From NCBI GenBank assembly GCA_963930775.1, contig OZ005706.1:3214545-3278544 (forward strand): a stretch of 64,000 nucleotides of DNA, given 5' to 3'. Source of the stretch: Cliona cf. orientalis (lineage: Eukaryota > Porifera > Demospongiae > Clionaida > Clionaidae). Under the pieces are notes generated by a model. The model had not been told where the DNA came from. It saw only the letters and a program-made list of their open reading frames with translations, and did no database searches. A program made the translations under genes and the position numbers. Below are positions 12,153-64,000 of the stretch, piece after piece. Each line of letters opens with the position of its first letter. The stretch's first letter is position 1.

Positions 12153-15100
12153 ATGCGCAGCTACTCGTTGATCGAGTGGGTCCGATCACTGGTGGTCGTC
12201 TACCTCAGCCTGGACTTGCAAATCAATGGTAAGTGCAGTCTCCACTTAAGTAGGCTGTGTTATCGATGAGTTATTGTCTGCTGTGTAATAAGCTTACATG
12301 TAAAGTGCCACTTGAGTATCTAGTATCATGGTGGTAGTATACAGCAGCCACAATATTGTAGATCAAAGCATAGGTAGTATTAAACTGATCAAAGCATATG
12401 GGGATTAAAAATTTGCACTTGTAAGCTAAGTCACAGTCATATATACCGTCCTTACTTTTCATCTGGTGCAATTGCTAAATTTACCTTTTGCTTCCAAGCA
12501 AGCAGCTATGAATGCCTGTCTAGCTTCAGTTACCCAGACTAGAGCTCTTGTATCTGTCCGTCCAATGGAACATGCTTCCATCTACATATACATGCATGCG
12601 ATTTCTGCCATGTGCTGTTGCACATTATGTCACTGAATGGTTGAAGGATTAGTTTGAGGAAACTACTTCCTCCTCTACTGCAAACATTTCCTTATGCTGT
12701 TGCTATGGTGATGGATAACTGGCTCCTCCCCCTCTCTATAGCTGTGCTGGGTGATGAGACTAGCGTGGATCAGCATCTTGAACTAGGAAAGAAGTTTCTA
12801 CAAGAAGGGCAGCTCTCAGATGCCCTTTATCATTATTCAGCTGCAATTGGTATGGCTCTCTCTCTCTCTCCTCTAATTCTGATCGTTCATCTCCTGCCTT
12901 CTCCTTTTTCCTCTCCCTCAATGTTACATGCTAATGCTATGCAGACGGTGATCCCTCTAACTATATGGTGTACTTTAAGAGAGCGGCGGTGTATCTAGCA
13001 ATGGGCCAGACAAAGAAGGCACTGCCTGATCTAAACAAGTCGTTAGAGATTAAGAAGGACTTCCATCATGTGAGTACAAGTACTAAGGTCTTTTGTTAGC
13101 ATAAATACAGGCTTAGCCACGTCTTTGTGTGCATAGCAAATGTACCTAATGTAAAAAGAAATCATCTCTCTCTCCCTCCTCTTCTCTGCTCCTCAGGGTC
13201 GTCTTCAGAGGGCCAACACTTTGCTTAGACTTGGCAAGATCAACGAAGCTGCTGATGATTTCCAAATTCTGTCAGATACTGCTAGTGGTACAGTGAAGGA
13301 GGACGCTCAGGTTCAGGTGTGTGTATTCTATTCACTATGAAGTAGTGTTTAGTACTGATAATGCCACGAATAGTAAGTAACTTTGGGAGGGTTTAAATTG
13401 GTGAAACAGCTCTCGTTAAGCATATGTCTAAATGCTCAGTACATAACTATTGTGCAAATTTTAATCATTTTTCAATAATTTGCTGAATTCCAAACTTTGG
13501 CAATTTGTACACTACTATAACATTAATTTCTTATCTTAAATTGTGGCAACTAACGAGCACATTAATAGCTGTGCTCTTGCTGCCAATCAGAGTCCATGAT
13601 TTTCACGTGCCTGTTTCTCTGTCCCCACAGCTTCAGCTGATCCCTTCGGTGAGTGGTCACACTGATGCTGCCCGGCAGTTCATGGACGCCAGAGACTTCC
13701 ACTCAGCCATTGAACATTTAGGTGAAGCCATAGAGGTCTGTCCGCTCACATGTAATCATGTTCTGTTACTGATTAAACTGTGCATGGATTTCCCTATGTC
13801 CACACTGCCCCTCTTGGTGCCTAGTTTATTAACTACCTTAAAGTCTTATAGTAAATAGCGATTTTGAAAAGAGTGCATTTAGCTCACAACTTAATTTTGC
13901 AATTTTGGTTTCAAGCTATAATATACACAACAAACTTTTGAGTAGTATATAGATGATTCCAGATACTCAGTGAGGTAACTACTCAACAGATGCTAGAGCC
14001 TATAGTAGAGGCCATGAACTTAGAAGTCACCATCTGATGAAGAACTGGACTATAGCTCGGACTCGAGCGAACGTTACTTGCATTTTTCAATTTTCAATTA
14101 ATCTTGTTTCTAATTAAATCAATTATGTCGTCACGAAGAAATTTTAGCCTCATGTTAATTTAGCGAATTTGCTTCCAGTCGCTAAATTCGCTAAATTAAG
14201 ATCAGTTAAGACGCAATTTACTTTAGCGACACTAAGGTATTTCTTGTTTGATTGCTAATTGCTGATTTGGATCTGATGAGGAGTGTGGGTGGGGCAAGCA
14301 CACGCGTCAATCATATTTGAAAATCACTATGTACACCTCGCATTGGCGGCTCATGCTCGGGAGAGGCTTACTGTAGCTTTTAATGTTGGACCTGTGAAGT
14401 AGAAGGCCCAAACTGTTAACAAATCAAGCTGAAACCTATAGGGCTCTTGGGACCTTGGAATAGTGCAGTTTGAAAAATAGCAAAAAAATCGCATTTGACG
14501 CAAAATGGTCCCTTTTCTCAGATCCTGTCATGAATTTTATCAGGGTTTCATTTGGGGGGGGGGCGGGGGGGGGGGCACTCGCTCCCCCCTTGAGAATAGC
14601 CACCAACCATACGTACATGTACATGTACAATACATGTATGTAAACGGTGAAAGTGTCCAACACGGTAGTTTCGCTCATATTTATCCTACAAACTATCTGA
14701 AGCTTCGTGCTACGCATGTTAGGAAACATAATATGCCCCATCCAACATTTGACTATTAAAAAGGAGGGATATCACTGACAGGCTTCTCCCCAACTGGGTC
14801 TCAGAAGCCACCAGAAACAGCCTCAGAGGTTGTAGAGTTTAAAAATTTCCTGGGGGAGCATACCCCCAGACCCCCCTAATGTATTATTCTACATTATAAT
14901 ATTCGTTATGGATGAAAAAACACGAAGTACTACTATAGTCCTTTCCTTTAACTCCACAATTGTTGTGTTTGCCCCCCCCCCCCCCCCCGCCCTTGACAAA
15001 AATCCTAAATGAAAGCCTGATTATAATATTATAACGAAAGTATCTCTCTTTATTGTGTACTTGACCGTGAGTAAAGGATACCTTGAACACTGTAGGTACT

Positions 15101-18100
15101 AGAGGTGCTTTCGAACTCTACTATGAGGCATAATTACCATATGGGTGGGAAAATTTCATGACTGCCAAGTCGACCACGAAAATAACGAAAATTAGCACGC
15201 CATGAAAATTACCTACCATATGGTACATGTATATGAATATTCATTGCTTGTGCACACTTCAAAGATGCCATGATTGCACCATCCTGAGCCCCAGAAATGA
15301 AGAGCTCATTGCTTGCGAAATTTGGGCCGACTGATGTTTGCATGAAATAAATGAAGATTCTCTGCAGACAACTTAACTGTTTGGTAAAACTTGCCGACAT
15401 TTCGACTAGATACTGTAGTCATCCTCAGGGCAAAAGTGAGGCGAGGTATGAAAATGCAGCCTGGTTTTATTATCTTTAGGCGTGGCTCCTGTGCTTGCAT
15501 GCCCATGCAGTTTGATGCAGAGGCTGAAGCACCGGCATGTTCGGGTTTGGGTTTGCATGCAAATCTTAACTACCTTTCAATTAATTGCAGAATCCCATAC
15601 CAGCTCATTACCCAGTCTGTAAAGGAGCTTCTTTACCATGTTGTACTTAAATCATGACATAGTGGCTGTCGTATCATGCTGCTTTCTGTGTAGGTTTGTC
15701 CGTGGGATGTGAAGCTGAGGGAGATGAGGGCAGAGTGCTATGAGTCTGCCAACATGTTCCAGTCTGCAGTCAGTGACCTCAAGTAAGTCAGTCCTCTCCA
15801 GTGATCAGTGTATAATGTGTAATATAATATTATGACATAGCGGGAAACTTTGGTGATATTTCTACTTTGGTGAATGCATTAAAGGTTGCCAATTTAAATT
15901 GCCAATGTAGAATTGATGCATGCATGCATACCTCTACATATGATTCGGATATAATTTCCAGTACCAAAAGAGAGCCATTTCACCTAATATTTTAACACTT
16001 GCCAAAGTTACCTGCTATAATTATACACTCAGAACATACTTTTAGTTTCTAATTGGCATAGGATGACGACAAAACTGGTGAACGACAACACAGAGGCATT
16101 CTACAGGATCAGCCAGCTCTACTACCAGCTAGGGGAGGAAGAGGACTCCTTGAGGTATACGTAGGATCATGTGCAATTATTATACATTTATTATTCACCT
16201 TTACTATTAATTTTGCACTGTGTATATAATAATTTTTTTGCTTGCAGGGAGATCAGGGAGTGTCTGAGATTAGACCCAGACCACAAAACATGTTTTCCCT
16301 TTTATAAGGTAAGCTCAGCTCTAGCAAACTTGTCAATAATAACACCATTCATATGTTAATTAATATCACCACATCCTGGATAGTTGACATTCCATTGTGA
16401 AACCCAAACGGGGTTAAGCTTGGCAGTCAGTATAAAGGGCTCCGCTTTCCGATATAGAAGTTATCGCTTCTGGCCTATTGGCTAAGATCAAGTAGAAATA
16501 AACTGTTCTTTGGAGTGTGACAGCTCCAATAGGGGAATTTCCCCTCTGCTGTTCACTTAATTTTTGTCCTGAGGGATGAGATCTGAAGCTTGCTTCATCT
16601 GTCCCACGGGTCACCCTGGTCTTGCACTGCTTCCAGGAGTGGCCCAACCCCCTTTTTTATAGGGGGACACCTTACCAAATGCATAGTAAAGTACTGTAGA
16701 ATCCCACAATTACATCCCCCCTTGCCCATCTGACAGTGAAATGTAGATACTAGAGTCCATAAGCCAAAAAAAAAAAAACGGTAGCTACAGCTAGCAAACT
16801 AGCTAATTGTGTCATATTATGCCTTACTTTGTCGTTTTTCTCGAGTTTGGCCATTAAACAGCCAGAGAAAGTACAGAGATTGTGCACCCACGTAGCATTC
16901 GACGGTCGATAATGGTCGTCACACGGAAATGTAACGCTCCCATGAATAAGCCCCCTCCCCACTTTTGCCTAATGCTAGCATGCATAAAGTGGGGGGCGTA
17001 ATCGTAGTATTCTACGGTACCTATAACTACGCAATCATTTCTTTCAGAAAATCAAGAAGCTTGAGAAGAAATTGAGAGTAGCAGGTGAACTAGTCCAGGA
17101 AGAAAAGTGAGTTCATTAATTTTGTTCCAGAGAATATTTGTATATACAAAAGTATGTACCCTTTGACACTAGATCTTCGATTTGTGCTTCATGTATGATA
17201 TTATGTGTAGATATGAAGAAGGAGCTGAGAAGTATCTCTCCCTGCTGGAGATTGACGACGATATCTCCCCATTCTTGCTGAGAATACGATCCAACCTTTG
17301 CCACTGCTACTCTAAGGTACGAAGTATAATGTGATCTAGCACATTCTGAGTACAGTGTACATAATATCCTGACTAGGCCTAGATTTCCTTAGCCCTGAAT
17401 ACATGTTGAAGTAATGTAATACAGTAGGAATCCTGGTGAACCTCCCTCCCTAACCCATCCACTCACCCAAATTGTACTGTAGCGTACATAATAATGTATG
17501 TACCATTGCTGATTTAGGCACATACATACCTGATAGGGGACTTGTAGAAATACCATACTTATCTAATAGAACACGTGGAAAAAATAATTCCAAAACTTGC
17601 GTTTTTCTGGTAAAGGTCGTCAATTGCTCCATATATACAATGATATAAACATTACGAGAATTCATAAAATGCTAATTTATTGCTGGATCATGCGTTATAT
17701 TTGATTAACTACGGTATAATTATGCTACTTGAGTTTTCATGCATATACGTACACACACATCCTTTTGTAGCTGGGTAGCTTATCGAATGGTAAGCGATGG
17801 TGTGGTCAGGTGCTGGAGATTGACCCAGACAATGTTGATGCCCTGTGTGACAGAGCTGAACTCTACGTGAGTCAGCAGATGTACGAGGAAGCCATCAAGG
17901 ACTACCAGAAAGCAAAGGATGTCGAGAATCATCCACAAAAGGTACTCTTATCTGGTAATTGTATATATCAGATTCTGCTCTCCCTGCATGTGACGTGTAC
18001 AGTAACATAGTGGAGATTCCCCCAGAGCAATCCCCTCGGGGTGCTGATCGTTGATCATAGCCTCGTGCTCCACCCTTTTCTTTGATGATTTTTAATTTGT

Positions 18101-19216
18101 CCAAAATCAAACCGGGTGGTCTACCCTGGTTAAGGTGTGCTACAGGAATAGTGCATTATATTTCTTTCAGGTTGATGAAGGACTACAAAGAGCACAGAAA
18201 TTGTTAAAACAGTCTCAAAAAAGAGATTACTATAAAATATTAGGAGTAAAGAGGTGAGCATTTGTGGTATCCAGTGGATTTGCACATTATTATTGGGATG
18301 CTAGTATAGCTATGGACATACATAATACTTCATATTGAAAGCCAAGTTTTTAAGCTCTTCATCCTGTGCCACCTGCATGTTAAGATTGGTTGAAAGGTGA
18401 TGTGAGTCTCGAGTCAATCTGAAGATTTTTTGAACTTAGAGTAGCATGGAGGAGTAGGTCAAAGTGTGCCCTTTTCACTAAACCTTTTGTGGAATTTCTA
18501 ATTTCAATTTTTGGATTAGACCACCTTCCTTTTGAGCATGGAAAGAGGATCTCCTCCCATAGCATAGGCACTACTCTCTCCACCTCATGAAGCTCAACAA
18601 TTTGCACGCGCTTATAACAGAACAGCAACGAAAAGTGAGATTAGCAAAGCATATCGCAAGTTAGCAAGAAAATGGCACCCTGACAGTTATGATGGAGAGG
18701 ATCAAGAAAAGGCAGAGAAGATGTTTCTAGACATTGCAGCTGCAAAAGAAGTGCTAACTGACCCAGGTAAACATATGGCAGAACTTTAGTTCATAGAGTA
18801 AAGAGAACTGAACTCAGCAACTTTTGATTTAGTTCCATGTATGTACATAGACATGCTTTCCACTAAGACAGTGTCCATCCACCCCCCCCCCCCCCCCAAA
18901 GTAAATTTTTATAACACTGACTGACACTAATTTGTAATTTCTTGGTAATATAATTATTGCAATAATTATTTTCTGTTGGGAATTTTAATTGAGGCAGTTA
19001 CCTTGGTCACCTAGGGAAACACAGTATCACAATACTTTATATTGCTATAGTGCAGTTTCATTAATGATTGTAATTTTTTTAGAGATGCGTCAGAAGTTTG
19101 ATGATGGTGAGGATCCCCTTGACCCGGAGCAGAAGGGTGGCTTCCAGCAAAACCCATTTGGGGGATTTCCCTTTGGATCTGGACAAGGTTTCACTTTCAA
19201 ATTCAAGTGGACGTGA
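12153..19216 (+). CDS. DNAJC3: DnaJ homolog subfamily C member 3 (p58IPK), ER co-chaperone, complete
   Basis: An ER-lumen TPR and J-domain co-chaperone that brings misfolded client proteins to BiP and is induced by ER stress. Exons: 12153-12228, 12742-12849, 12945-13069, 13197-13316, 13631-13735, 15694-15782, 16062-16154, 16248-16308, 17048-17106, 17211-17316, 17771-17941, 18171-18253, 18621-18766, 19083-19216. Phases close to 491 residues (human protein 504). Exon 1 encodes a hydrophobic N-terminal signal (SLVVVYLSLDLQI). TPR repeats follow, with recognisable blocks HLELGKKFLQEGQLSDALYH, LPDLNKSLEIKKDF, NDNTEAFYRISQLYYQLG and VLEIDPDNVDALCDRAELY. The J domain starts at about residue 389 (RDYYKILGVKR) and keeps the catalytic HPD (KWHPDSYDG). 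The C-terminus is a Gly/Phe-rich tail (NPFGGFPFGSGQGFTFKFKW) without KDEL, as in the human protein. Intron 5 (13736-15693) is repeat-filled and intron 8 carries a U2-like snRNA gene. Confidence 0.96.
14500..15070. repeat. Inverted poly-G/poly-C repeat pair in DNAJC3 intron 5
   Basis: Left part: ATCAGGGTTTCATTT followed by a G tract (about 14554-14576). Right part on the other strand: ATCAGGCTTTCATTT, then AGGATTTTTGTCAAGGGC and a G tract (poly-C on + at 14973-14988). The block at 14795-14880 matches the window-start repeat in reverse orientation. This looks like facing copies of one element, or the two ends of a larger foldback element. Confidence 0.55.
15145..15215 (-). repeat. Partial copy of the GTGCTAATTTTC MITE
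   Basis: Read on the - strand it contains GTGCTAATTTTCGTTATTTT then GACTTGGCAGTCATGAAA, matching the left part of the element at 11118-11491. Confidence 0.5.
16431..16436 (+). promoter_or_regulatory. TATA-like box upstream of the U2-like RNA
   Basis: TATAAA is centred about 29 bp before the inferred RNA start at 16463, a normal TATA spacing. An upstream proximal sequence element is not recognisable without other sponge snRNA promoters for comparison. Confidence 0.4.
16463..16651 (+). ncRNA. U2 snRNA-like gene with altered branch-site recognition region
   Basis: The first 31 or so nucleotides match U2 almost exactly (ATCGCTTCTGGCC, then TTGGCTAAGATCAAGT; one nucleotide shorter in stem-loop I). 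CTGTTCTT, normally just 3' of the branch-site box, is kept, but the universally conserved GUAGUA box is replaced by AGAAATAAA. Downstream all U2 parts can be folded: stem-loop IIa (TGGAG/CTCCA), IIb (GGGGA/TCCCC), an Sm site (AATTTTTGT), stem III (GGGA/TCCC, AGAT/ATCT, GAAGC/GCTTC) and stem IV (GGGTCAC/GTGGCCC plus CCTGG/CCAGG). Length is about 189 nt, as in human U2 (about 188-191). TATAAA lies at 16431-16436, 32 bp upstream, and T6 follows the 3' end at 16653-16658. It sits in sense orientation within DNAJC3 intron 8. It could be a divergent functional variant or a well-preserved retrocopy. Confidence 0.8.
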
Positions 19217-54021: not shown

Positions 54022-57000
54022 ATGGCAGATGAAGGTGACGAACAGGATGGGGGTGAAGATGCTCGAATGCAATTGGTGCAACAGTACTGTTTGAAAACTA
54101 TTAAACAGGTATCTAGGGTATCTAGGTAGCTTATATTAGTAAATAACTGCATAATTTACTATCAGTATTATGGAGTAACATCAGCTATAAACGCATGGTT
54201 TATATCTGCCATTAGAAAAATGATAAATGGGCAAAAATGATGAGCCAGGAAGAGAATGGAGTGATGTTAACGGAATTCCTTGAAAAGAGCGATTCTCTGG
54301 TGCTAGTCATCTATGTCAATCAACTGGGACAGCTCACGCCCATCAATGACTTCCCAGCTACATCGAAGAACAAGGTAAGCTACTAGTAGCTAGATACCTA
54401 CGACCACATTTCGAGCGCGCATATTATTGCGCATGCGTAGAGTTTGCGATACTTGTGGGTGTGGCTTCTGCGTGCGCATGTGTGGTATAGGCCTGTATCT
54501 CATAAACTTTTGCAGGCTGTCTATTTTGTGAAGCGTCGCCCTGAGTCTATCAAAAAGGACAACTTCCATGACCTGGTGATGTTTGGTGACCTCTCCCATG
54601 TACCACTCGACCATTTCTCTGCTCTCATTGACACAGTTAGTATCTGAGCTCTAGCTAATATATAAATATTATAGCTTATTATTCACTGCTTGTGCACATA
54701 GGTTCTGGTCCCTATATTAACCAACTCCAGCAATCACAAATCTTGGCCGGCTGTAGTAGCTAAGGATGTGTTACAGCATATGGGCAGTTTCAAGGGGGAG
54801 GTATTTCTGTTTAGTGGACAAGTGAAGGGGAAAACTCTTTTGCCGCTGCCACCACAAGCTGACTTGATCGTCAAAGCTGCTGACTGTCAAAGGAGGTAGC
54901 TAATTGAATAGCAACGTTTATAATATGGACACTATAATAATTATATCATCATCCCGTCTAGGGGTGAGGCGTTTGACAGAAGTTTGATTCACATAGTAGA
55001 GGGTATTGTCATTGATTGGTCGAGACAGATCCACGATGTTCTCAAGAAGAACTCTGCTCAGCCTCTATTGGAAGGCAAGAATCCTGGACCACTGGTTGAG
55101 ATTGAGTTTTGGGATGCTCGAAAAGCTGATCTGGAGTCAATAGCTGATCAGCTATGTGTCGATAAAGTGACTAAGATGGGACACCTATTGGAGAAAACCC
55201 TCAGCAGCTACTACCCAGCCTTCCAGTCAATGATTGATACAGTCTTTGGCTCACTTGAAGAGGCCAGAGATATTAGGTATAATCTGGAACACATGTTCCC
55301 AAAGTGAATGTAGCTAACTTAATTATTGAGCTCAATAAAATAAACTGTTCACTGACATTACTATAATACACTATGCACGCCAAATAGTAGTGAAAATAAA
55401 TGTACTACATGATGTTGTTTATGTGCATTGCTTTAGCATGCATCTGAAGCCACTGAGGCGCCAGTTTGAAGAGATGGAAGAATGTGACTTCCTTGAACTG
55501 GAGAGAAGGCTTCCAGCAGTATATCATCTCATCTGTCTCATTTGGAGCCACTCCAAACACTACCAACAACCTTCCAGGCTGGTGATTCTAATGCAGGAGA
55601 TATCAAACCTCATGATTGAACTGGTAACTCAGTTTTGTTGTAAAATTTGTAAATTGAGACTGCTTTTATTTGTCACCACAACACTTTATTTGTAGACAAG
55701 CAATTTTGTCTCTGAAGAGATCATTCGAATGGAGCCTGACGATGGTCTGGAAAGACTTACTGATGCTTTGAAGATCTGTGGCCAGTTTGAACGTCTATTT
55801 TTTGAGAAAAAATCTCAGCTGAGCAGCTATTTCAAGGAAAAGCCAACAGTTGAATGGGATTTCAAATCTAGTTTGATCTTTGCAAGAATGGATGTATTCA
55901 TTGGCCAGATGAAACTCATTCAGGTAGCTAACTACTGCTGATCAAGTTCACACATTAACTTGATCCTCAATAATACTATTCCTTGCAGAAATATTTCCGT
56001 ACCACCATGTCCTTCTTGAGGCTGGAGAAGATGGACTTTGGAGGAATTAGAGGCCAATATTTGAGTGATCAAGTGGTGCAAATGTATAATGAGTTTATGG
56101 AGTTGACCAACACTTTCCAGAGTCGAGGAGACAATCCTCTAGACACTACCAACACAGTGAGTGATCACAGTAATTATTTAGTATGCCTAATTAGTTCTAT
56201 AATTATGATCATTGACACGTTAGAAATTTGTGGCTGACTATGAAGCCTTCAAGGAGAGGATAGCTGACATGGATAAACGTCTCTCTCAGATCATCTGTCA
56301 TGCTTTTGACGACTGCTCATGCTGTGAGAGCATCTTTAAACTGTTTGAGATGATGGGCCCTCTGCTGGAACGACCAATCATTCATGAAGACTTCAAGCAC
56401 AAGTACTCCATCCTTCTTTCCATGTACAATCAGGAGCTGGATCAAGCCAAGATAATCTTTGATGAGCAAATGAAAGCAGCCCAGTCCCCTTTGGGGCCGG
56501 CAATCAACAAGAACATGCCACCTGTTGCTGGAGTTCTAAAGTGGGCCTTGGAGCTCAGGGAAAGGATCGGAGGGAGCATGGATAAACTGAGGGCAATTAA
56601 CCATGGGTATTAACTGTGACTCAACTGTACTATTATCATTGTAAATTTTAATGCAGAACAATGGAAACAGCAGAAGCCATGCTGGTGTTCAACAAGTATG
56701 ATGAGATGGTAGAACTGATTCAGAGGTTAGCTATAATAATAGCAAATGTGGCTAATTATTTTATGCTAGCAATATTGGCTACTACAAATCATGAATTGTT
56801 GATTTTTGTCCAGGTATGAGGCAGAGGTATTCAGTGAGTGGACCCAGGGAGTGGATGAGGTGGCAAAAGCCAACCTGGATAAACCACTTATAGTCAGAGA
56901 TCCAGACACTTTATCAATCTCCGTCAACTTTGACCCCAAGGTACATATATTATGGGTGCATACCTACCCAATTTTGACCTATTTGTTTTACCAACAATAT

Positions 57001-60000
57001 TGATATCACTATAGGCTACTGTTTTATCAATACTTTTCACATGCAGCTTGTTGCTCTTTTGCGTGAAGTGAAGTATCTAGAACAGCAAAATTGTTCAGGG
57101 CGAGTAATCCCAGAGAGTGCTAGCAATGTCTTTCAACAGAATGAGACTTATAGGAAGTACCTCCAGAATCTAGATGTCACAGTAGCACTCTACAACAAGG
57201 TGCGAGAGACTATACTGGACGTGGAGTATCCTCTCATTGAGAAACAACTATATGACATTGACCAAGAGCTGGAAAAAGCTATTTCGCAACTCAACTGGAC
57301 TAGTGCAGGTATAGTTGGCTATTACTACACTTTCAGCTAACATTATCATTGTCATTCTACTTCATGCAGGTGCATGGGAGTACATTGAATCAACTCGTGA
57401 TCTGGTGCGTGACCTGGAGCGTCGTGTTCGCCTGGCCAAGGCTAACGTGGAGAACATGTGCACTCTCATGGCTGGCTGGTCCAAAACACCACTCTATAAG
57501 AGAAAGGGAGACAAAAAAGAGTCCCTCCTCAACTTAGAGGTAGCTAGCTACTTTATAATAATTAGATAATGAGTTTATAGTATGGTTTCTGGCCCATTTA
57601 TATAGGATCGTGAGACTCACCGTGAAGCATGCTATAAACGCTTGAAGGCTGATGCAGAGAAGATTCATGTGCTAGTTCAAGAAAATTTGGGCTATTTCCA
57701 AGCTGAAGAGGAATCTGAGAACTGGAGAAACTACATTGACTACCTGGATGATGTTGTTCTTGATGGTTTATTTGAGTCCGTCCAATGCTCCCTGCTCTAT
57801 CTCAAGGAGAACACAGACAAAGAGAAAGAGGTCCCTCCTCTCATGGTGGCCAAGCTGGAGCTGCAGGTTAATAAAAAAAAATAGTATGTAGGAGAGGGTG
57901 GGGGAGGGGAATAGTCTAGCCGTAGATCTTACATGACTATGTTTACATGTCTGTTGTATCTGTGTTCAGCCTAGTGACGAAATACTCTCCATTTTGCACC
58001 TCAGGCTCCTGAAATAGTATTCCAGCCTTCAATGGAGCAAGACTCTCCTGATAGCTTGCATATGCTGATGGAAAGTATCCTTGGTGATATTTTTAACTTT
58101 GCTAGCCTGGTGCCTCGTGTGGCCAAACACACAGGCACTACAGATTACCTTTCAGATGTAGAAGAGGTAAGAGTACCATGCACAAATGCACAACATAACA
58201 ATCAGATTTATTATTTTTGGTATTATTTCAGATTGTAGAGTTGTCAGATATGAAAGAAGAGATTCTGTCTCGGGTCTCGGCTGTTGTGAAAGCATCAACG
58301 GAGTACAGGGACTCATTCAGTAGCTATTCCCACCTGTGGACTGATAATAGACAAGAAGTTTTAACACAATTTTTGGTCTATGGACATGTACCTACTCAGG
58401 TAATACTATGTTGCGTGCTTAAAAACAGATCATGAATTAAGACTTAATTCTTTGCTCAATCGAACCGCTATCTTACTTGGTTTTAGGAGGAAATAGAGCA
58501 GGCTGGAGATGAGGGTGTACCGGAGAATCCACCAACGCTGGCTCAGTTCAAGCAGCAGGTTGACAACTATGAAAAAGTGTACTCGGAGGTGGACAAATTC
58601 GAGGTAACTCTCCAAAGAGCTCAGCAGTAGCTATAGAGTGTTTTATTATACTAATAATAATAGGCCAGTAAAGTGGTTAACGTGTGGTTCCGTGTGGATG
58701 CTCGACCATTCAAACAAGCCCTGCTTACTACCGTCAAGAAATGGAGCTTCATGTTCAAACAGCACCTCATTGATCATGTGACCAACAGGTTAGCATAAGA
58801 TTCCTTAGCTATTGTAGCTATATAGCTGCATGGCCTTGATTTATATTTGTGTCAATTTCATTTAATCTGTTCATGACATTATTATTCAATTTTCTAAATA
58901 GCTTGAATGATCTACAAGAGTTCATTAAGGTGACCAGTAGTGGTCTGAATGCGGAGGTTGGTGAAGACGACTATGAAGGCTTGACAGGAGTGATGGTTCA
59001 CCTACTGGCTATTAAGGACAGGCAGCCCACCACTGATGACATGTTTGAGCCACTTAAAGAGACCATAGAGTTGCTCCAGTCTTATGATCACATCATGCCT
59101 GATGAAGTGCACCAGCAACTAGAGGTATAGCATATATGTACGAATAGTTAAAGTACACACCATAATAATTATTACACTTTATAGGAACTTCCTGAAGCAT
59201 GGACCAATGTCAAGAAACAATCAGTGGTAATGAAGCAGAATGTAGCTCCACTGCAGGCTGAAGAGTGCAACAAGCTCCGCCGCAAGCTGATTTCCTTTGA
59301 TGTATCTCAACATGAATTCAGAGAGAACTTTCGTAAGACAGCTCCATTTCGGTTTGCCTCTACTCATCCATACATTCGTATTGACAAGGTAATTTCTGAT
59401 ATAAAGTATAACACACAGTAATTCTCAATGAACATGCACATGCAGTCACATCAATCTACTCTTGCAATGGAGGCTGAGATGAAAACCTTGAGTGAAGCAG
59501 CAGCACTGTTTGAAGTGAATATGCCAGAATTCAAACAACTAAAGGCATGTCGAGTTGAAGTAAAGATGCTCAAAAATCTCTGGGATCTCATCACTCTGGT
59601 GCAGAGTAGTTTTACTGACTGGAAGACAACCCTGTGGTCTGATATCAATGTGGAGAATATGGAGCTGGAGTGTAAGAAGTTTGTGAAGGATATTCGAGGC
59701 TTGGATAAGGAGATGAGGGCTTGGGATGCCTTCAGTGGGATGGAGTCAAGTGTGAAGAACATGGTGACCTCTCTACGTGCCGTGGGAGAGCTACAAAATC
59801 AAGCCATCAGAGATAGGCACTGGGAACAGCTTATGCAGGCTACACAGGTAGTGCAGCTACAAAGATTATAATACTAAATTTAATGCAAGGTTTCTTTTTA
59901 GGTGAAATTTGTCATGTCAGATGAGACCAATTTAGCCGATTTGCTGGCTCTTAATCTGCATAAATTTGAGGACGAGGTTCGCACTATTGTAGACAAAGCA

Positions 60001-63000
60001 AGCAAAGAACTGAGTATGGAAAAGACACTTGGGGAGCTTCAAGTTACTTGGTCACAGATGGAGTTTGAGAATGAAACACATAACCGTACTGGCTACATGA
60101 TACTCAAGTCTAGTGAGGAGCTCATTGAAACACTGGAAGACAATCAGGTATAATAATACTGTATTCATTTAGGTGGCAGTGCCCTGCTCCTAAAATTAAA
60201 TTAAATTAATAATATTATTGTTAAAAATTTAATGGCTTATGTAATCATAAGTGGTTAAAGTCTGATTCACCTGTTTGGCTGCTCACAAACACATTGAATT
60301 ACAACTCTGTCAGCACTACTCTGTAGGGCCTTAGTGAATTTGGAGATTGCAGCTAGCTAGAATGTATTTGTTAGCAGCCAAACAGGTGAATCAATCTTTA
60401 ACCTTATGCATGATTTCTTTGCAGGTGCAACTGCAAAACATGATGGCTAACAAGTTTGTTGGCTATTTCCTTGAGCAAGTGTCTGAGTGGCAGAAAAAGC
60501 TCTCCATGGCCGACTCTGTCATCACTATCTGGTTTGAGGTTCAGATCACCTGGTCTCATCTGGAGTCCATCTTTATTGGTTCAGAGGATATCCGAGCTCA
60601 ACTACCAGAGCACTCCAAGCAGTTTGATACCATTGATGCTGACTTCAAGGTGCTCATGAAGGAAGCAGAGAAGACGCCAAATGTAGTGAAATTCACTAAC
60701 AGAAAACGTCTGTATGGAGAGCTAGAGGATATCCAGAAAAGGCTGGCAGTTTGTGAGAAGGCCTTGGCTGACTACCTGGAGACAAAGCGGCTCGCCTTCC
60801 CTCGATTTTACTTCGTTTCCTCATCAGACCTTCTTGATATACTCTCCAAAGGCAATCAACCAGTTCAAGTAATTATTCTCTTAGGCTATGCAGTCCCACT
60901 AATATCAATTCAAAGTTATCTACTTCACCATTTGCTTTCCAGGTTGCACGTCACCTGGCAAAGTTGTTTGATAGCATGGCTAAGCTCAAGTTCAAGGAAG
61001 ATGAGGATGGGCAGCCAACCAAGGAGGCTGTGGGCATGTACAGCAAGGATGGAGAATATGTCGACTTTGATGAGCCTTGCAAATGTGTTGGACAGGTATT
61101 GGAAACATGATTATGTACACAACTGTTTGTGAATGTTTGTTTAAACTTCTTATTTAGGTTGAATTTTGGTTGAATTCACTGCTTGATAGGATGGTTGCCA
61201 CCATTCGTCACAACTTTACTGAGGCTGTAGTCACCTATGAGGAGAAACCGAGAGAGCAGTGGATCTTTGATCCTCCTGCACAGGTTAATTAAATGCTAGT
61301 ATATACTGCAGCCAATGACAAAATTAATAGAGGTAGAATTCTTCAGTTTATTGTTCAATAGGCTAATATAGGGATGCCTAATAATGTTCTGATTGTGTAT
61401 TATTATACAGGTGGCTCTAGCTGGTACTCAGATCTGGTGGACCACAGAGGTGAACATTGCTTTCAGTAGGATGGAGGAAGGCTTTGAAACAGCACTCAAG
61501 GACTATTTCAAGAAGCAAGTGAGCCAACTGAACACGCTCATCAACTTGCTACTAGGAGAGCTCACTAAGAGTGACAGACAGCGGATCATGACTATCTGCA
61601 CCATTGATGTCCATGCAAGAGATGTGGTGCAGAAGATGATTACACAGAAAGTGGAAAACTCCCAAGCCTTTACTTGGCTCAGTCAGCTAAGACATAGGTT
61701 GGTTAAACCGTTTTACTGTCACAATAATTATTAGGTACCATTTGTCTACTCTAAAGCATATGATAGCTACAGATAGCACAACCCAAACATCTAAATAGAT
61801 TCAATGACATTAGGTGGGATGAGGCACAGAAGCACTGCTTTGCTAACATTTGTGATGCTCAGTTCCGCTACTCGTATGAGTATTTGGGCAACACAGCTCG
61901 TCTGGTGATCACCCCTCTCACTGATCGCTGCTACATCACTCTTACACAGTCACTCCACTTGACAATGAGTGGAGCTCCTGCCGGACCTGCTGGAACAGGA
62001 AAGACAGAAACCACTAAAGACTTGGGAAGAGCTCTCGGTATTATGGTCTATGTGTTCAACTGCTCAGAACAAATGGACTACAAAGTATACATACTAGATT
62101 GTCATATCATGGAGATTTTGTGTATTATGCTATATACATCATCCATAGTCAATTGGTAACATCTACAAAGGTCTAGCTCAGACCGGTGCCTGGGGTTGCT
62201 TTGATGAATTCAATCGCATCTCTGTGGAAGTGTTGTCAGTGGTATCAGTCCAAGTGAAAACTATTCAAGATGCAATCAGGGATAAGAAGACAAGGTTTGT
62301 TTTAATAAGAAGGGGATACTAAATAATAGCCTCCAAACTTTGATCATATTAAGCAGAAGTAGTCTTGGTATCACACAGTGTGAATTACAGTGCTCTATAA
62401 GCCCTCAGAATCTCAGTAGCGCTTAAGTTTTCATTGGAGTTGAGAGAATCTGGGATCAATTCTCAATAGAATTTTATCAGCATCACTGCATAATATCATC
62501 GTTGCTCAGATTCCTATTTGAAGGGACAGAGATTCGACTCACCCCAACTGTGGGTCTCTTCATTACAATGAATCCTGGCTATGCTGGGAGGACTGAGCTA
62601 CCAGAGAATCTCAAGGCCCTCTTTAGGTATACCTATTAATAGAGAGACAATACAACTACAATGTAACCTTAATAATCTCTTTCTCGTCAGACCATGTGCC
62701 ATGGTTGTACCAGACTACGAACTGATAGCAGAGATCATGTTGGTTGCAGAAGGTTTCATTAATGGACGAATACTAGCCAAGAAGTTTCTCACGCTTTACA
62801 CCCTGTGTGCAGAGCTACTCTCCAAGCAGGATCACTATGACTGGGGGCTGAGGGCTATCAAGTCTGTGCTGGTGGTGGCCGGATCACTCAAGAGAGGAGA
62901 CAGAGGGAGACCAGAGGAACAAGTGAGATACCAATAGATAGCTACACATAGCTAGCATAAGTACCTAGTATCTGAAAGCATGAGTATGGCTAATGCACAC

Positions 63001-63972
63001 TTATTTATAGACAATGTTCTTCATCAGTGATACTTGTATATGATATTCTGTAGGTTCTCATGCGTGCTCTCCGTGATTTCAACTTGCCAAAAATTGTGAC
63101 TGATGATGTGACCATCATTATGGGACTGATTGGTGACCTATTCCCAGCTCTCAATGTACCCAGGAAGAGGGACATGGAATTTGAAGAGTGTGTTAAGAAA
63201 TCTATACTGGTAAATTGTAGTATCAGTACACAATACAGCTGATTGAACCACAAACTGTCATTAATATAATGTAGGATCTTGGATTACAAGCTGAGGATCA
63301 CTTTGTTCTGAAGATAGTTCAGCTTGAAGAGCTGAGGCATGTGAGGCACTCCATCTTCGTCATTGGTAACGCTGGAACTGGTAAGAGCAAGATCCTACGG
63401 TCCTTGAACAAGACATATGCCAACATGAAGCTGAAGCCAGTCTGGGTTGATCTGAATCCCAAGGCTGTCACAACAGACGAGTTGTTTGGGTTTATCAATC
63501 CTGCCACCAGGGAATGGAGGGATGGTAAGACAAATTTAATTGACTACATGTGTGTGTGTGTGTGTGTGTGTGCGCGCACGCATGAGTGCATGTGTATGTG
63601 TGAAACATAGTGAATATGTGGTATGTTACATTTAATTTACTTTAGTTCCTATATAATTACTGGGATAATACTCAAGAGCTACCTTTTCTTTATAGGACTG
63701 TATTCCAACATCATGAGAGACCTGGCCAACCTTCCACATGACAACCCCAAGTGGATTGTTCTTGATGGAGATATTGATCCCATGTGGATTGAGTCGCTCA
63801 ACACTGTGATGGACGATAACAAGGTCCTGACCCTAGCCAGCAATGAACGTGTCCCTCTCACTCCCTCCATGAGGCTCATGTTTGAGATCAGTCATCTGAG
63901 ATATGCCAATCTGTCTACTGTATCGAGAGCTGGTATTCTCTTTGTCAATCCATCTGATCTAGGATGGAATCC
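54022..63972 (+). CDS. Axonemal dynein heavy chain, outer-arm beta type (DNAH9/11/17 group), 5' 33 exons; continues past window
   Basis: A motor heavy chain of the ciliary outer dynein arm. Exons: 54022-54108, 54216-54374, 54516-54635, 54702-54895, 54962-55276, 55437-55623, 55696-55923, 55989-56156, 56224-56606, 56657-56725, 56814-56940, 57047-57308, 57370-57539, 57606-57866, 58005-58166, 58232-58399, 58487-58603, 58664-58788, 58902-59124, 59185-59388, 59446-59847, 59902-60147, 60425-60868, 60943-61095, 61158-61283, 61411-61697, 61814-62084, 62149-62294, 62510-62626, 62691-62922, 63054-63209, 63275-63524, 63696-63972. All phases agree, giving about 2,278 codons and an open phase-2 donor at the end. 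The tail (DHC_N1) includes [12 protein letters not shown] and [13 protein letters not shown]. The linker (DHC_N2) includes [20 protein letters not shown] and [23 protein letters not shown]1 has the P-loop [18 protein letters not shown] and [18 protein letters not shown]2 has [34 protein letters not shown] precedes the window end. The start codon gives the usual tail length, with AAA1 near residue 1,850. Confidence 0.96.
63549..63573. repeat. TG dinucleotide microsatellite
   Basis: (TG)n passes into GCGCGCACGC within the second-to-last dynein intron of the window. Confidence 0.85.
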
Positions 63973-64000
63973 GTAAGTAATAATAATTAATTAAAGATAT

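Follow-up and report, generated by a model that had tools for sequence, protein, structure and literature searches.

The window, a stretch of 64,000 nucleotides from the genome of the sponge Cliona cf. orientalis, contains one U2 small nuclear RNA (snRNA) gene, the sole Rfam match at the gathering threshold when the whole 64 kb is scanned with cmscan. The features of the locus are as follows.

16309–17047, plus strand: predicted intron of a DNAJC3-like gene, holding the U2 gene in sense (ab initio exons; predicted exons within 12153–19216)
16383–16410, plus strand: upstream element GTTGACATTCCATTGTGAAACCCAAACG, PSE-like (named by analogy), common to the copies on chromosome C17 in the upstream alignment, with a weakened 3' end in the window copy
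16431–16436, plus strand: TATAAA, from −32; a TATA-like box occurs in 11 of 11 aligned upstream regions
16463–16652, plus strand: U2 snRNA gene, the most divergent of eight full-length copies (RF00004, 128.4 bits)
16469–16487, plus strand: stem I, with one C fewer than in the other seven copies (alignment)
16486–16491, plus strand: GATCAA, the U6-pairing stretch, intact
16494–16502, plus strand: altered branch-site recognition box AGAAATAAA, replacing GTAGTAT; seven of the eight genomic places read AGAAATAA, and this one AGAAATAAA
16503–16510, plus strand: CTGTTCTT following the box, intact
16510–16529, plus strand: stem IIa, one pair altered on both sides between families (structure alignment)
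16531–16545, plus strand: stem IIb, two pairs altered on both sides between families (structure alignment)
16559–16566, plus strand: Sm site AATTTTTG, invariant in 8/8 copies (sequence, alignment)
16573–16605, plus strand: stem III, in which the drawn pair at columns 120/140 is unpaired in 8/8 copies (structure alignment)
16608–16645, plus strand: stem IV, two pairs altered on both sides (structure alignment)
16648–16666, plus strand: 3' inverted repeat CCCCC-T6-ATA-GGGGG, present in some form in 8/8 full-length U2 copies
16653–16658, plus strand: T6 after the U2 3' end

The predicted protein of the host gene matches the human DNAJC3 structure 2y4t (E 1.3e-140). Its nearest named relatives are all from sponges (Halichondria panicea, 64%; Ephydatia muelleri, 57%; Dysidea avara, 56%), followed by a mollusc and Amphimedon, which supports the sponge origin assumed in the sequence-only reading. 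A second gene, dynein-heavy-chain-like and named from the reading of its protein alone, is predicted from 54240–64000 onward. It has 59 predicted exons, and many of its introns measure 51–90 nt.

The sequence-only reading had identified the gene as U2 by its 5' end and length, and the covariance model bears this out: it aligns from end to end (positions 1–192 of 192), well above its gathering score of 46. GATCAA of U2 is the stretch that pairs with U6, and both it and ATCGCTTCT of the U6-pairing 5' end are present. The box has indeed been replaced, as that reading held, and lies between AAGATCAAGT and CTGTTCTT, both intact; the good Sm site that it described is also there. Relative to the other copies, the window gene lacks one C in stem I (column 10), and its box is longer by one A (column 39); its score is the lowest of the eight, the other seven falling between 137.3 and 156.2 bits. 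With its extra A, missing C, and weakened upstream element, it is a diverged, and perhaps declining, member of its family. Assignment to U12 (RF00007) was considered and rejected: only U2 is called at 16463, and real U12 genes are found elsewhere.

An RF00004 search of the genome (216.8 Mb in 149 contigs), in which 46 of 9028 candidates were scored and which therefore gives a lower bound, returned at least nine U2 matches with scores of 77.5–156.2 bits, eight full-length and one decayed. Family A comprises four full-length copies, three on C13 and one on C4, at 150.5–156.2 bits; family B comprises three copies on C17 (137.3–139.5 bits) together with the window copy. In the ninth copy (L009, on C6, 77.5 bits) the box is gone and the 3' part has diverged; this decayed family-B copy, at L009:1501-1681, has an intact-looking promoter. 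Same-orientation pairs occur at C13:1098170-1099942 (family A, 1.6 kb apart) and C17:834477-835616 (family B, 0.9 kb apart).

None of the eight full-length genes, even the four with the highest scores, has the GUAGUA box, and on that ground they are classed as a non-canonical U2 variant. Seven have the box CAAGUAGAAAUAACUGUUCUU, with CTAAGATCAAGTAGAAATAACTGTTCTT at the box region, and the window copy has one A more. An exact gap pattern run over the whole genome hits eight places, seven with AGAAATAA and one with AGAAATAAA; the canonical form and the reversed control each give none. The listing of canonical U2 copies that the sequence-only reading proposed is thus empty: none was found by the RF00004 search, the exact gap pattern, or the GTAGTATCTGTTCTT pattern. 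GTAGTATCTGTTCTT occurs at 1 exact, 19 one-mismatch, and 683 two-mismatch places, and none of the 30 places fetched (all 20 exact or one-mismatch places and 10 with two mismatches) has GGCTAAGATCAAGT within three mismatches upstream. The two families match at 47 of 50 positions in columns 1–51 (47 of 51 with the window copy), or 92–94% over the first 50 nt, and at 94/139 to 98/137 positions (68–71%) in columns 52–190. The altered box is identical in both and falls in their conserved 5' part.

Stems I, IIa, IIb, III, and IV can all be drawn, in agreement with the original description. Standard pairs fill 95.7% of the 352 pair cells in the eight full-length copies, as against 38.6–51.9% in a control with partners slid by one to three columns; helix 4 (stem III) is 84.4% paired. 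Among the 44 drawn pairs at least 25 are invariant, and five, accounting for 19 cells, are altered on both sides, mostly as differences fixed between the families. None of 500 shuffles reached 19 cells, while 150 of 500 reached five pairs, so the pair count is not significant. Broken pairs are found at columns 117/143 in two copies and 161/173 in five, in addition to 120/140.

Two U12 genes and all nine U2 copies, the decayed one included, share an upstream arrangement in which a TATA-like box lies about 30 nt, and a CCACAAG-like element about 55–60 nt, upstream of the gene. In the window copy the latter is CCCAAACGG, which is weaker. U4 likewise has a TATA box and a CCACAAG-like element. A TATA-containing snRNA promoter type, with the TATA box near −30 and the CCACAAG-like element near −57, is thus seen in a sponge at L001-L009, L045, L046, and L059 (U2, U12, and U4). 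The TATA box and the T6 had been noted as unusual for a U2 gene; both are present at the window copy, but neither is peculiar to it, since U2, U12, and U4 share the TATA box and the CCACAAG-like element, and a T run follows 8/8 U2 genes. By the features of a Pol III snRNA gene, the window copy has TATA and T6, a T5 lies within its Sm site, and U4 and U12 share the TATA. Just 3' of all eight full-length U2 genes (3' flanks of L001-L007 and the window) are CCCC, a T-rich run, and GGGG, an arrangement that does not occur in the U12 and U4 genes examined and is possibly a signal for 3'-end processing or termination.

The other spliceosomal RNAs that could be found look ordinary. Both U12 copies are canonical (112–114 bits), with the U12 box GAGUAAGGAAAAUAAC preserved. 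For U4 there are four equally scoring matches; the one that was read is normal, with both U6-pairing stretches kept. No U6 was found in the genome by family search (in which the controls were empty too), by a human core pattern with up to three mismatches, or by DNA search; a degenerate pattern gave two places with three mismatches, neither of which has any Rfam match. The sequence of U4 implies an ordinary U6, which is therefore taken to be missing from the assembly, though a split or divergent U6 is also possible. A conserved 59-nt 28S stretch was not found in the genome. The absence of U6 and of this stretch indicates that the assembly is incomplete for conserved RNA genes. A 45-nt core of initiator tRNA, identical to the human one, has one exact and seven near-exact places, so that long stretches resembling human sequence can generally be recovered.

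These U2 genes resemble canonical metazoan U2 (RF00004) in length, in the 5' end and U6-pairing stretch, in the stems and Sm site, and in having an snRNA-type promoter. They differ in having AGAAAUAA(A) in place of GUAGUA(U), and the spacing between AAGU and CUGUUCUU is longer by one or two nucleotides. Nucleotides 31–41 of the altered U2 (GUAGAAAUAAC, e.g. L001:1531-1541) resemble the region GUAAGGAAAAUAAC of U12 from the same genome; the two RNAs are nonetheless distinct, both U12 copies being canonical U12, whereas U2 keeps its own stems, including stem III/IV. Eukaryotic U2 also turned up as three strays among the bacterial genome bins of genome_contigs, and the box is canonical in 3/3. 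The altered U2 pattern has no occurrence in genome_contigs, and related sequences have none in viral_contigs. One contig (L060), filed as the bacterial MAG GMC4.maxbin2.282, holds U1, U2, 5S rRNA, and three histone 3' stem-loops and is therefore animal DNA.

According to PMC4950102, GUAGUA of U2 is well conserved in metazoans, and Leishmania major has a working U2 with UUAUAA, also A/U-rich, in its place; a U2 that lacks GUAGUA thus has a kinetoplastid precedent. The setting there is different, with trans-splicing and an unusual Sm site; the sponge is an animal that has numerous cis introns and whose Sm site is canonical. U2 of Giardia and Spironucleus is divergent, with a 5' part better kept than the rest (PMC3510501, PMC6679479). 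In Giardia, U2 retains GUGUAGUU, which can pair with the branch site of that organism (PMC3510501), whereas the sponge has changed the box and left the rest ordinary. Stentor U2 keeps GUAGUA (PMC9505925). Single changes in the box are harmful elsewhere: in human RNU2-2, n.35A variants have been associated with neurodevelopmental disease, and the corresponding 36A>G of yeast U2 does not support splicing (PMC12165836). In the literature searched, which left subscription papers on metazoan snRNA evolution outside its scope, no report of a sponge U2 sequence was found, nor was any account met of an animal in which an snRNA and its introns have co-evolved genome-wide in such a way.

Human U2 carries the box in its branch-interacting stem loop: U34-A35 belong to the loop, and A38, C40, and C45 to the stem (PMC8516221). 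The altered box may still be displayed in such a stem loop. By predicted pairing, the canonical G33·U37 that closes U34-A35-G36 would be replaced by A33-U38 closing G34-A35-A36-A37, a GNRA-type loop; U32 would still stand opposite an A (A39), and the G31·U39 wobble would become G31/A40. When the stem loop is forced, its energy is 1.7 kcal/mol in the canonical form, 1.5 in the altered form, and 3.4 in the window copy, which has the extra A. In RNAfold neither the canonical nor the altered stem loop is stable by itself. The box could still pair with the intron branch region, now by A-U pairs with AU-rich sequence, the candidate pairings being AUUUC[A]U (nt 33–38) and UUAUU[A]U (nt 35–40). Were the bulged A placed as it is with canonical U2, between the partners of nucleotides 33 and 34, the matching branch site would be AUUUC[A]U.

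Introns were predicted from sequence by an ab initio gene finder trained on the window and on fetched DNA. Of 332 predicted introns 296 were used, and of 37 predicted in a 40-kb hold-out 33 were used, the remainder being dropped for short flanks or length; the predictions are sensible, with 14 exons in DNAJC3 and 59 in the dynein-like gene. The sequence-only reading had suggested that branch-site motifs be compared, and the result speaks neither for nor against re-coding: the canonical motif is not enriched, and no replacement rises clearly above background in the 329 predicted introns of this one genome. The same intron picture may arise in animals that combine canonical U2 with degenerate branch sites. 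Within 40 nt upstream of the 3' splice site of these introns, CTAA[CT] occurs 29 times against 32.3 expected and CTGA[CT] 21 times against 29.8. The AGAAAU box ranks 2299th of 4096 possible boxes. AAATAA (U2 nt 35–40) ranked 19th of 4096, and later 81st and 57th for all introns and 35th and 50th for 100 short introns. At first ATNAT/TTATTAT stood out, with 269 observed against 153 expected (z 9.2, second-order Markov). It was rejected as a new branch motif: its excess is largely genome-wide, at 284/160 (1.77x) in the branch zone versus 180/117 (1.54x) in random 40-mers of the same contig, and over the 33 hold-out introns its density in the zone does not exceed that in distal intron sequence (15 observed, 8.0 Markov-expected). 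TCAT/TTCAT (nt 33–38) was also set aside; it is 2.5x denser in the zone than distally, yet TTCAT occurs 35 times against a Markov expectation of 34.2. A preference for TNAT over TNAC (odds ratio 1.41, p 0.0005; control VNAT/VNAC 1.19, p 0.016) partly reflects the T-rich zone.

The window gene is probably one of eight full-length, ordinary genes for U2 of the major spliceosome, in all of which GUAGUA has become AGAAAUA(A), throughout the species. Four observations support such a rewriting of U2: the box is changed in 8/8 genes, the same box occurs in two diverged families, the stems and Sm site are kept, and the promoters are of snRNA type. The alteration looks species-wide in this demosponge and not a property of one odd copy, and the eight genes are presumably transcribed and supply the working U2. 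The sequence-only reading was right that the locus is a structured, promoter-bearing U2 whose box has truly changed, and wrong or overtaken in treating it as a variant beside canonical U2, a reading rejected because neither the RF00004 search nor the genome patterns found a canonical U2. Its suggestion of a decoy, or of different branch-site selection beside a normal U2, is not the natural reading when the same change is present in all eight full-length genes, the four best included. The chief rival is that canonical U2 exists and is missing from the assembly, for example because a tandem array collapsed; in that case the eight altered genes would be two non-canonical side families. U2 lies in tandem arrays in many animals, and U6 (by four routes) and the 59-nt 28S stretch are also not found, though U4 keeps its U6-pairing stretches. 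Against this stand the recovery of the initiator-tRNA core, the normal appearance of the altered genes, four of which score 150–156 bits, the sharing of one box by two independent families, and the snRNA-type upstream regions of all eight, weakened only in the window copy; we consider a missing canonical U2 unlikely. That all copies are retro-pseudogenes derived from one damaged RNA is scarcely credible. The copies are scattered over several chromosomes and include a decayed one (L009, of the nine), but they have upstream promoters in common, which retrocopies lack, the families differ by compensatory changes in the stems, and the same-orientation pairs are spaced as in gene duplication. For the window copy itself this origin was rejected on its promoter elements and kept stems, in contrast to L009, where the box and 3' part are gone. 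The several decayed copies sharing the change that a retro-pseudogene family would have presented are not seen: the seven others are intact, and the only decayed one lacks the box.

How a species-wide rewriting of U2 might be tolerated is a separate matter. One possibility, real though short of probable, is relaxed constraint: pairing between U2 and the branch site would hardly matter, the branch adenosine being chosen through SF1, U2AF, SF3B1, and the 3' splice site, so that the box drifted and was then fixed. Since this concerns mechanism only, it is compatible with a species-wide change. It agrees with the lack of any prominent branch motif in the predicted introns, with the poor correlation between branch points and U2 complementarity and the optional pairing cited in PMC7969005, and with the UUAUAA box of Leishmania major (PMC4950102). 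Drift alone does not predict a box identical across families that differ at about 30% of their remaining sites, although concerted evolution or a recent common origin of the 5' part of U2 could explain it. Very unlikely is a third arrangement, in which GUAG is still used but shifted 2 nt in the 5' direction, so that introns branch at UUCUAAC. GUAGAA is present in the sequence (U2 nt 31–36), yet TTCTAAC has 0 occurrences against 0.8 expected in the branch zones of the 329 introns, GTAGAA ranks 3663rd of 4096 boxes, and CTAA[CT] falls below expectation. More specific, and rather doubtful, is the proposal that a demosponge lineage has re-coded the interaction between U2 and the branch site: its only U2 would display a GAAA loop with A33-U38 as the closing pair, and its introns would branch at A/U-rich AUUUC[A]U or UUAUU[A]U and not at yUnAy.

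With several letters of the box altered in every findable U2 gene, this sponge would offer a natural experiment on the extent to which pairing between U2 and the branch site is needed, and on the joint change of an snRNA and many introns.
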